DNA from: Candidatus Woesearchaeota archaeon | Lineage (GTDB): Archaea; Nanobdellota; Nanobdellia; Woesearchaeales; JABMPP01 | Direction of reading: 5' to 3' | Assembly (NCBI GenBank): GCA_018303405.1 | Contig: JAGVYD010000012.1 | Coordinates: forward strand, 1 to 64,000 | Length of the DNA: 64,000 bases | In this document: piece by piece, positions 2,825 to 8,780 of the stretch | How positions within the stretch are numbered: the first letter of the stretch is position 1 | Layout: every line of letters begins with the position of its first letter | The notes under the pieces: model-generated | What the model was told of the DNA's origin: nothing | Databases searched by the model: none | What the model saw: the letters and a program-made list of their open reading frames with translations, nothing else | Program-made: the position numbers and the translations under genes

Positions 2825-3442
2825 ATGAAGCTTTTCAGGGTGATATCAGTGTTTGAAAATACAGAAACTCCTGCTACAATGAAGCCCCTTGAAGCAATTC
2901 TCGCACCTGAGTATGAAAATGTCTTGGCTCCAGTCATCAGGCATGACAAAAAAGAAATGAGACGGAACCGGGACAGGATAGCCGAAGTGGCCGGGCACTA
3001 CATGATGGCTGCCAAGCAATTCCATCCTGTGTACAAGGAAATTATTGGCGACTATGACTCACTGGGCTCAGACATCACAGAAGCCTTTATCCCTGATTCC
3101 AGTCCAACGGATTCAACCATCTCTTCCCTCAGGGAAAAGCTGGAAGGGCAAAAAACCATGCTTGCTGCGTCCCAGGTCGAATTGCTAATGACACTTGTCG
3201 ACCGGAATCTGCCGATTGAAGAACAGGCAAAGCGATATCTTCTGAACATTCACGATTTAAATCAGAGGCTCGATAACATCGGCACTATCCTTGGCGAGGC
3301 AGCGGAATGGACATCCAATCCTGAAAAGGCAGCCAAATTTCAGGCCTTAGCTGCAAAAGTCCGAAATGTCTATGACAGGTTGCAGCATGCAGCTATTGAC
3401 AAAATGCCCGGGATATATATCTCTCGGGCCGAAACACACTGA
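2825..3442 (+). CDS. Hypothetical helical protein
   Basis: I do not recognise this 205-residue, mostly helical, cytoplasmic-looking protein. The ATG at 2825 is about 15-20 bases from TTTTTATACT. A GTG at 2849, eight codons in, is preceded by GGTGAT at good Shine-Dalgarno distance and may be the true start; from there the protein would begin MFENTETPAT. The helices near residues 95-125 and 145-175 have heptad-like spacing. No catalytic motif or metal site is visible. Confidence 0.6.
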   Translation: MKLFRVISVFENTETPATMKPLEAILAPEYENVLAPVIRHDKKEMRRNRDRIAEVAGHYMMAAKQFHPVYKEIIGDYDSLGSDITEAFIPDSSPTDSTISSLREKLEGQKTMLAASQVELLMTLVDRNLPIEEQAKRYLLNIHDLNQRLDNIGTILGEAAEWTSNPEKAAKFQALAAKVRNVYDRLQHAAIDKMPGIYISRAETH

Positions 3443-4796: not shown

Positions 4797-5270
4797 TCAT
4801 TTCCTGGCCCTGCCGCCCATGTAATCCAGTCGTATTCCTGCCTGGTTGGCATAAACCGTTATCCTCTCATCCCTGTAAAATTCCATGTAATGCACTGCCC
4901 TTATCCCTGAATTTGCGGCGAGCTTAAAGCATGTCAGGCAGGGCGAGGCTGTTATGAATATCTCCGAGTTGTCGATGTTCACCCCGTTTCGTGCAGCCTG
5001 GGCAATCGCATTCGCCTCTGCATGCACTGTCCTGACGCAATGGTCATGCTCCATGTCATGACCCACATCATCGCAATGCGGCGCGCCCCTCACGCTCCCG
5101 TTGTAGCCTGTTGACAAGATTGTCCTGTTCCTGACAATTACAGCCCCGACATGCTTCCTGTCGCATGTGCTTCTCGTTGCGACCTGGTCCGCAATGTTCA
5201 TGAAGTAATTGTCCCAGTCAACCCTTTTGACATCCCTTTGCATTTTCTCCTGTGGTTTTTCTGCTGCCAT
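4797..5270 (-). CDS. dCMP deaminase (deoxycytidylate deaminase family)
   Basis: Zinc enzyme converting dCMP to dUMP, the feeder for dTMP synthesis. The zinc signature is complete: HAEANAIAQAA carries the His ligand and catalytic Glu, and PCLTC carries the two Cys ligands. The N-terminal WDNYFMNIADQVATRSTCDRK segment and the GYNGSVRGAPHC segment are typical of the ComEB/dCMP deaminase branch rather than of free cytidine deaminases. The 157-residue length is normal. A GGGGGAG Shine-Dalgarno lies a few bases before the ATG. A nearby nucleotide-binding protein and NrdR make this a deoxynucleotide-flavoured neighbourhood. Confidence 0.9.
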   Translation of the reverse strand: MAAEKPQEKMQRDVKRVDWDNYFMNIADQVATRSTCDRKHVGAVIVRNRTILSTGYNGSVRGAPHCDDVGHDMEHDHCVRTVHAEANAIAQAARNGVNIDNSEIFITASPCLTCFKLAANSGIRAVHYMEFYRDERITVYANQAGIRLDYMGGRARK

Positions 5271-7338: not shown

Positions 7339-7953
7339 TCAATACTCAATCCCCTTCCTCGCCTTTATCCCTCTTTGCCAGGGGTGCTTGACTTTCTGGA
7401 TTACAGAAACATAGTCAGCGTGCTGGAACAATTCTTCAGGCGCGTCGCGGCCGGTGAAAACAAGCTCAACATTGTCGTGCATTTGCAGAAGCATTCCTGC
7501 ATCTTCCATGGAAAGAAGTCCCTTGTCCAGGGCGCAGTTAATTTCATCCAGTATAACAAGCTCATATTCTTTCGATTTTAAAATCTCAAGCGCTTTTTCA
7601 TATGCAAGCCGTGCGGCCTCAATTTCCATCTCATCGGGCTGGAAAACAAATTTCGCCTTCTGCTCCCGCAGGTTCTGCATGATTTCCTCCCTATTCTGGA
7701 CTGCGTCAGCGCCGTACTGCTCAATTGTGAAATCCTTCTTGAACGATTCCGCGCTTTTTATCTCGCCGGTAAACCCACTTTTCAGGAATTGTATCATGTA
7801 AACCCTGTAGCCGTTTCCCAATGCCCTGGAAGCCAGCCCCAATGCAGCTGTTGTCTTGCCTTTGCCGTCGCCGGTGTAGATGTGCACCAGGCCAAGCTTG
7901 CTTCTGTCATCATCTCCCTGCACCACAATCGGTTTTTTTATTTTTGTGACCAT
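7339..7953 (-). CDS. Cob(I)yrinic acid a,c-diamide adenosyltransferase (CobO/BtuR type)
   Basis: Transfers adenosyl from ATP to cob(I)alamin or corrinoids, giving adenosylcobalamin. The start of the domain, GLVHIYTGDGKGKTTAALG, is the diagnostic P-loop of the CobA/CobO/BtuR family; ELVILDEINCALDKGLL and the closing KHPWQRGIKARKGIEY are also characteristic. An upstream ATG at 7995 exists, but the ATG at 7953 follows GGAGAGG by seven bases. It lies directly downstream of nrdR on the same strand (49 bases, or 6 if the longer start is used), so the two are probably co-transcribed. That pairing suits a B12-dependent class II ribonucleotide reductase elsewhere in the genome (inference). Confidence 0.9.
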   Translation of the reverse strand: MVTKIKKPIVVQGDDDRSKLGLVHIYTGDGKGKTTAALGLASRALGNGYRVYMIQFLKSGFTGEIKSAESFKKDFTIEQYGADAVQNREEIMQNLREQKAKFVFQPDEMEIEAARLAYEKALEILKSKEYELVILDEINCALDKGLLSMEDAGMLLQMHDNVELVFTGRDAPEELFQHADYVSVIQKVKHPWQRGIKARKGIEY

Positions 7954-8001
7954 CCCATTACCTCTCCTTTCTGTTCCCCGAAATCCAAGTCTCATCAGCC
8001 C

Positions 8002-8451
8002 TTATCGCTGCAGTGTCTTAATCTCCTCTTTGAAGGATGAAATGTCCTTGAATTCCTTGTAAACTGAAGCAAACCTCATATAAGCGACTTCATCCAGCTT
8101 CTTGAGCTTTTTCATGACCAGCTCTCCGATATATGCGCTTGAAATCTCCCCCTTCCCAAGCGATCTCAGCTTGCCTTCAATCTCCCCGACCAGGTGCACA
8201 ATCCTTTCCTCTGTTATTGGCCTTTTTTCAAGGCAAAGCCTTATGCCTTTCTCGAATTTGGCCTTTTCAAACGGCTCTTTGGTGCCGTCTTTCTTGATGA
8301 CAGTCAAATCAAGGTTCTCCACTTTCTCATAAGTGGTCCATCTTTTCTCGCATTTCAGGCATTCCCTTCTCCTGCGTATGGTCTGGGCATCTTCAATGTC
8401 CCGCTTATCAATCACTTTGGATTCAGAATTCGAGCAATACGGGCATTTCAT
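8002..8451 (-). CDS. nrdR: Transcriptional repressor NrdR
   Basis: NrdR represses ribonucleotide reductase genes in response to ATP/dATP bound by its ATP-cone. The N-terminal zinc ribbon is complete (MKCPYC, then CLKCEKRW), followed by TIRRRRECLKC and the ATP-cone (LTVIKKDGTKEPFEKAKFEKGI onward). The 149-residue length is normal. The ATG at 8451 begins exactly where the family usually starts and has GAGGG upstream; the ATG at 8484 has no ribosome site and lies against an operator. The promoter carries two NrdR-box palindromes, so autoregulation is likely. NrdR is mainly bacterial, so an archaeal copy with intact boxes is noteworthy. Confidence 0.92.
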   Translation of the reverse strand: MKCPYCSNSESKVIDKRDIEDAQTIRRRRECLKCEKRWTTYEKVENLDLTVIKKDGTKEPFEKAKFEKGIRLCLEKRPITEERIVHLVGEIEGKLRSLGKGEISSAYIGELVMKKLKKLDEVAYMRFASVYKEFKDISSFKEEIKTLQR

Positions 8452-8484
8452 GTCATTAACCCTCTTTATGATTTTGGGAACCAT

Positions 8485-8529
8485 AATACAATATATTGTA
8501 TTATTGCCACCTTACACCCCAATATATTG
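8485..8529 (-). promoter_or_regulatory. Tandem NrdR boxes at the nrdR-cobO promoter
   Basis: An 18-bp perfect palindrome (AATACAATATATTGTATT, 8485-8502) and a second CAATATATTG (8520-8529) share the AATATATT core; core centres are 31 bp apart, about three helical turns. Both the sequence and the integral-turn spacing match what is known of bacterial NrdR boxes. They lie between the TATA box (about 8546-8556) and the start codon, where binding would block transcription. Confidence 0.75.
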
Positions 8530-8545
8530 TAGTATCAGGCTTTTG

Positions 8546-8556
8546 CTATATATAAA
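8546..8556 (-). promoter_or_regulatory. TATA box for the nrdR operon
   Basis: On the minus strand the sequence reads ATTTATATATA, a strong archaeal TATA box. A start site 25-27 bases downstream would fall at about 8520-8525, inside the distal NrdR box, leaving a leader of about 70 bases before nrdR. Confidence 0.55.
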
Positions 8557-8603
8557 TATTTGTATACTTGAAAACAAGGTTTATGCTGATTCGGGCCCAC
8601 TCT

Positions 8604-8767
8604 GGCCTTGTCCGAAAACTCGCCTTCCGGCTCGGTTTGGGCATCCGCTCAGCATTGCGGCTTCCCGCGAATTGCATTTTTCTCCTCTGCAACCCCGAAA
8701 AATGCATAATCCCTCCGGGAATGGGCTACGCAAAATTGATGCCCAAACTCACTTTTCGGACAAGGCC
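8604..8767 (+). repeat. Inverted-repeat element, copy R2 (164 bp, type copy)
   Basis: Outer arms GGCCTTGTCCGAAAA (8604-8618) and its complement (8753-8767) enclose a middle stem TTTGGGCATC/GATGCCCAAA (8636-8645 with 8738-8747) and a central stem TGCATTTTT/AAAAATGCA (8673-8681 with 8698-8706). The direct repeat GCCCACTC flanks it on both sides (with one extra T at the left), a target-site duplication. It has no coding capacity of its own. It fills the spacer between the nrdR promoter and the PiT gene's end. Confidence 0.88.
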
Positions 8768-8780
8768 GCCCACTCCAGTA

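Follow-up and report, generated by a model that had tools for sequence, protein, structure and literature searches.

The nrdR–cobO locus

On the minus strand of the window, the whole 64,000-nucleotide stretch of Woesearchaeota DNA analysed here, an archaeal TATA box is followed by NrdR box 1, NrdR box 2, nrdR and cobO, in this order. The features are given below, R1 being a profile of box pairs from the nrdR promoters of 39 relatives (other genomes only).

7339–7995, minus strand: cobO/btuR-type corrinoid adenosyltransferase gene (PF02572, 1.3e-54; ORF table)
8002–8451, minus strand: nrdR, 149 aa, zinc ribbon and ATP-cone (TIGR00244, 3e-56; PF22811; PF03477)
8485–8502, no strand assigned: NrdR box 2, promoter-distal (sequence, 17.8 bits, within the R1 match)
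8516–8533, no strand assigned: NrdR box 1, promoter-proximal, at the inferred transcription start (18.1 bits, within the R1 match)
8549–8556, minus strand: archaeal TATA box TTTATATA, centre 28 bp upstream of the box 1 centre

The stop codon of nrdR and the start of cobO are separated by 6 bp when the first in-frame ATG of cobO is taken (a start codon further on is possible), and the two genes are putatively carried on one transcript. The genome comprises 1,605,204 bases in 23 contigs and is 95% complete, and archaeal-type genes (ribosomal L37ae, Pcc1 and prefoldin) lie 2.5–4 kb past nrdR. A dCMP-deaminase-like gene, also a dNTP-pool gene, is located at 4797–5270 of the window (minus strand), 2.7 kb from nrdR, and no R1 match was found near it among the 150 of 392 own-genome candidates that were scored.

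Conservation of the NrdR protein

The nrdR product gave an equivalog match to TIGR00244 over positions 1–147 (189.6 bits, cut-off 124.65), and has the full-length NrdR layout, with a Zn_ribbon_NrdR domain containing two CxxC motifs (PF22811) followed by an ATP-cone (PF03477). It could be aligned along its full length with chains of solved NrdR structures (best E = 2.6e-39), and its match to 7p37, the Streptomyces coelicolor NrdR entry (PMC9110341), had an E-value of 7.3e-32. The roles of residues in DNA and nucleotide contact are those described for S. coelicolor NrdR (PMC9110341). In the alignment with 7p37, the DNA-contact residues D15 and R17 and the RRRR motif at 26–29 are present, and R37 is also kept. 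At the nucleotide site, the equivalents of S. coelicolor V48, K50, E56, F58, K62, F124, V127 and Y128 are identical, K53, E59 and K65 of the archaeal protein corresponding to K50, E56 and K62. Changes at contact residues were R12 to K, R51 to K, K69 to L and Q72 to E. Judged from this alignment, the residues for reading DNA and for binding two nucleotides are largely kept.

Paired boxes upstream of nrdR

The earlier note had described a perfect 18-bp palindrome upstream of nrdR, with a second core 31 bp away, just downstream of an archaeal TATA box. All three elements were confirmed, and the palindrome around AATACAATATATTGTATT (8485–8502) is in fact perfect across 22 bp (8483–8504). The second box is ACCCCAATATATTGTAGT (8516–8533), and the box centres, at 8493.5 and 8524.5, are 31 bp apart. 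Bacterial boxes are described as 16 bp long with common spacers of 15–16 bp, that is, 31–32 bp centre to centre, and the spacer range given for NrdR regulons at reductase promoters is 14–17 (or 24–27) bp (PMC12051234). Between 16-bp boxes, the spacers in this genome are 15 bp (nrdR) and 16 bp (nrdJ, see below), and all four boxes carry, nine positions apart, the conserved C (C5 of the 18-mer) and G (G14).

Pairs were scored with a matrix built from the nrdR upstream regions of 90 relatives, with a bacterial consensus as seed and the spacing held at 30–33; our own genome was left out because the motif must not be chosen to fit it. With this matrix the nrdR pair scored 35.9 bits, whereas 5000 dinucleotide-shuffled versions of its upstream region never exceeded 13.9. 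The position of the pair fits the autoregulation of nrdR that had been proposed, which we regard as a prediction from sequence.

The only reductase detected and its promoter

The sole ribonucleotide reductase detected in the genome is the class II, B12-dependent nrdJ, on another contig (L004:8697–11837, minus strand); a class III reductase (NRDD) was looked for in this genome and not found. NrdJ scored 607.3 bits against TIGR02504 (cut-off 399.95), as an NrdJ-type protein, and its domains are PF08471 and PF02867, without an ATP-cone. According to the earlier note, similar palindromes were to be expected near the reductase genes of the same genome, and the proposal withstood this check. Upstream of nrdJ, the boxes AACACAACATATTGTGCT and ACCACTATATCTTGTGGT (minus strand) lie 32 bp apart, with the centre of box 1 located 29 bp after the TATA box TTTAAATA, and this pair scored 42.2 bits, higher than that of nrdR. 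Since the sole ATP-cone detected in the genome is in NrdR and NrdJ has none, NrdR may alone provide ATP-cone-based feedback on the total supply of dNTPs.

A thioredoxin gene (L004:12289–12612) is divergent from nrdJ, the intergenic region being common to both. Downstream of nrdJ, on the opposite strand, a Cdc6-lid AAA protein is encoded (L004:7146–8219), likely Orc1/Cdc6.

cobO and cofactor supply

The cobO product scored 185.4 bits against PF02572 (cut-off 25.7) but fell short of the NCBIfam cut-offs for corrinoid adenosyltransferase. Its translation contains GDGKGKTT, which we take to be the P-loop, as in a member of the BtuR/CobO family. Searches of this 95% complete genome for another adenosyltransferase and for proteins with a B12-binding domain found neither. 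This leaves NrdJ as the sole adenosylcobalamin user detected, and others are possible outside the searched families or in the missing 5%.

The linkage to cobO had been taken to suggest that adenosylcobalamin supply is controlled together with the reductase. Alternatively, nrdR and its boxes could be real and cobO a mere neighbour, with nrdR regulating itself and read-through into cobO irrelevant to adenosylcobalamin supply; we consider this improbable. Among 371 sampled genomes of the phylum, CobO was above cut-off in 117, of which 115 also had PF02867 (a family that covers class I too), which argues against simple adjacency, although 174 genomes had PF02867, in the same broad sense, without CobO. 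Proximity was judged in the 75 CobO genomes with a reductase among the matches listed, the other 42 being unjudgeable. In 55 of the 75 a CobO match is no more than 3 kb from a listed reductase, but in 20, our own genome included, none is that close. The order nrdR–nrdJ–cobO was found in 14 of 60 relatives' loci, and nrdJ–nrdR–cobO in one of 30 shorter loci (L019); in our genome nrdJ is separate from nrdR, on another contig, and cobO adjoins nrdR. The 6-bp gap, the gene order in relatives, the co-occurrence with PF02867 and the lack of a second detected adenosyltransferase or B12-binding-domain protein support joint control of cofactor and reductase, as far as can be read from the genomes.

NrdR and promoter geometry across the phylum

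In the 371 genomes, which include no second genome of the same family, NrdR was matched in 284 (262 above cut-off), PF02867 in 289 and NRDD in 108 (102 above cut-off). Box pairs were found with R1 (E ≤ 0.01) in at least 190 genomes, a lower bound, as 16 candidates were scored per genome under stricter filters. By the same search, an R1 match was absent from 99 of the 284 NrdR genomes. Both NrdR and boxes occurred in 185 genomes, NrdR only in 99, boxes only in 5 and neither in 82 (Fisher p = 7e-25). When our own genome and the 39 used for training were excluded and only strong NrdR matches counted, the numbers were 145 with both, 89 with NrdR only, 8 with boxes but without a strong NrdR match and 89 with neither (p = 6e-21). 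These p-values overstate independence because the genomes are related. Among the best 30 sites, 29 lie upstream of a gene for NrdR or for a reductase. Ten of the 30 had served for training, and among the 20 that had not the count was 19 (two of the best sites, L271 and L278, had the gene named nrdR from the NrdR profile search). Of the 90 nrdR genes in relatives' loci, 47 have a reductase gene after them and 4 are fused to one, as judged by eye. A strong pair at L256:1500–1550 (G119), in a genome without an NrdR match, precedes what we take, from the translations, to be an FTR1-like iron permease gene adjoining trxB–trxA.

The arrangement relative to the TATA box is also kept. The TATA centres lie 28 bp (nrdR) and 29 bp (nrdJ) ahead of the box 1 centre, and a TATA-like octamer was present within 60 nt before box 1 in 39 of 40 paired promoters (39 relatives and our own nrdR), at −27 to −31 in 23 of the 40.

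NrdR and its boxes may have been acquired from bacteria and be vestigial, or act differently under archaeal transcription. A tree of NrdR (163 rows, 149 columns), built to ask for a single archaeal origin, mixes archaeal and bacterial rows, and a single origin was not resolved with these columns. Our protein (L005) belongs to a clade of 14 rows (98/87) together with Diapherotrites, Pacearchaeota and Falkowbacteria, hinting, on few columns, at a possible exchange between DPANN archaea and Patescibacteria. This placement would suit a vestigial system, as would the description of NrdR as rare in archaea (PMC9110341, PMC12176259). Usable pairs were obtained from 46 of the 90 relatives' nrdR upstream regions and none from the other 44, which points the same way, but in some of the latter relatives, such as G346 and G203, a site is found close to the reductase gene rather than nrdR. 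Drift should erase both the spacing and the TATA distance, yet relatives keep pairs at 31–33 bp and the TATA distance of 27–31 bp recurs as above; moreover, nrdJ carries its own strong pair on another contig and the contact residues of NrdR are largely kept. We therefore regard a vestigial or altered role as quite unlikely, and a working bacterial-type NrdR as the preferred reading.

Specificity of the box pairs

Within 104,290 bases of our own sequence, the independent pairs above 14 bits were those of nrdJ and nrdR, and no others. With R1 at E ≤ 0.01, the same two sites were the only ones in 1,605,204 bases, the next having E = 0.28 (150 of 392 first-look candidates scored). When the spacing rule was removed and the bacterial seed matrix used, 37 of 51 best partners lay at 31–33 bp, with 3.6 expected. 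That the palindromes are AT-rich repeats arisen by chance, or serve an unrelated factor, is scarcely credible and already largely refuted: single 12-base cores (≤ 1 mismatch) do occur at five places outside the nrdR and nrdJ promoters, but only these two promoters form pairs in the sequence tested, scores above 15 bits were reached by 52 of 90 real upstream regions vs 1 of 1800 shuffled ones, and box pairs track the presence of NrdR across genomes.

One of the five stray cores is perfect (G000:C14:146162) and was rejected as a target; it lies after dph5, between this and another gene, beside a repeat and without a partner. The other four, each with one mismatch, had no partner in the matrix scan. 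A repeat-like sequence, TTTTCGGGGTTGCAGAGGAGAAAAATGC, occurs at 8595–8770 of the window and at L009 ~3230–3330, adjoining both perfect palindrome cores of the genome.

Proposed model and comparison with known systems

Considering the above results, we think it highly probable that nrdR–cobO is a woesearchaeotal transcription unit controlled by its own product, NrdR acting with dATP/ATP on the box pairs of nrdR–cobO and nrdJ. When DNA precursors are plentiful, NrdR would be loaded with dATP and ATP, and the loaded tetramer would bind a pair of palindromes spaced by three turns of the helix, at two promoters, that of nrdR–cobO in the window and that of nrdJ on another contig. When the usual archaeal TATA-to-start distance is applied, box 1 would cover the start site at both promoters, about 28 bp past the TATA box, and box 2 would lie ~31 bp into the transcript. 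NrdR sites of Mycobacterium tuberculosis are also reported downstream of the start, at +15.5/+47.5 at nrdF2 (PMC4428469). Because box 1 covers the inferred start and the M. tuberculosis sites are likewise downstream, bound NrdR would likeliest block RNA polymerase, and not TBP. On a drop in dATP, NrdR would leave, and the reductase and the enzyme making adenosylcobalamin would rise together. Binding, repression and dATP sensing in this archaeon are assigned by analogy with the bacterial protein.

NrdR with its boxes is already known as a bacterial system. The archaeal locus resembles the bacterial regulon (the S. coelicolor nrdRJ promoter, Escherichia coli, Listeria and Streptococcus) in its zinc ribbon and ATP-cone regulator and in paired palindromes with the common 15–16 bp spacer before reductase genes and often nrdR; in S. 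coelicolor, boxes precede nrdR and then class II nrdJ (PMC9110341, PMC12051234). It differs in its promoter, which has an archaeal TATA box and box 1 over the inferred start, in having nrdJ and nrdR on separate contigs, in carrying cobO in the nrdR unit and in the two promoters found. In haloarchaea, nrdR also adjoins reductase genes (nrdA and nrdB), but these are class I, are argued to have been transferred from bacteria, and boxes are not described in the parts of that report consulted (PMC3019208). NrdR is reported in "some" or "a few" archaea (PMC9110341, PMC12051234). Our literature search found no mention of NrdR together with DPANN, and supplementary files may list archaeal boxes. The new aspects are the conserved geometry at TBP promoters, the two-promoter regulon with cobO and the commonness of NrdR in the phylum, matched in over three-quarters of the genomes and with matching operators in many, vs "rare" in print. 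Through this system, a bacterial-type repressor that senses nucleotides could be tested on an archaeal TBP/TFB promoter, and the findings suggest joint budgeting of reductase and B12 cofactor.

A broader proposal is put forward tentatively. NrdR could be the usual reductase controller in this DPANN phylum, incorporated into TBP promoters whose TATA-to-box geometry is fixed, governing cobO and replacing dATP feedback where the reductase has no ATP-cone, and in some relatives fused to a class III reductase, which could repress its own gene.

NrdR–NrdD fusions and split NrdD

Single open frames in which the zinc ribbon of NrdR is combined with two ATP-cone stretches and NRDD were observed at L115:2022–4583 (minus), L154:1492–3825 (plus), L162:1864–4479 (minus) and L163:1492–3873 (plus), and encode the repressor fused to a class III reductase. 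A box pair of 26–32 bits lies upstream of three of the four, L154 being without one.

In some loci the glycyl-radical end of NrdD forms a separate small frame, as at L125:1836–2040 (minus) and in L115, L136 and L163; no mention of a split NrdD was found in the parts of the reductase literature searched for it. Some of the separate pieces have internal stops, and so some may be broken genes. The L125 frame encodes 68 aa matching PF13597 positions 526–561 (RIVGYFRPVSNWN). By eye, a separate glycyl-radical piece was found in at least 27 genomes among the matches listed, and in G198 it lies ~14 kb from nrdD.
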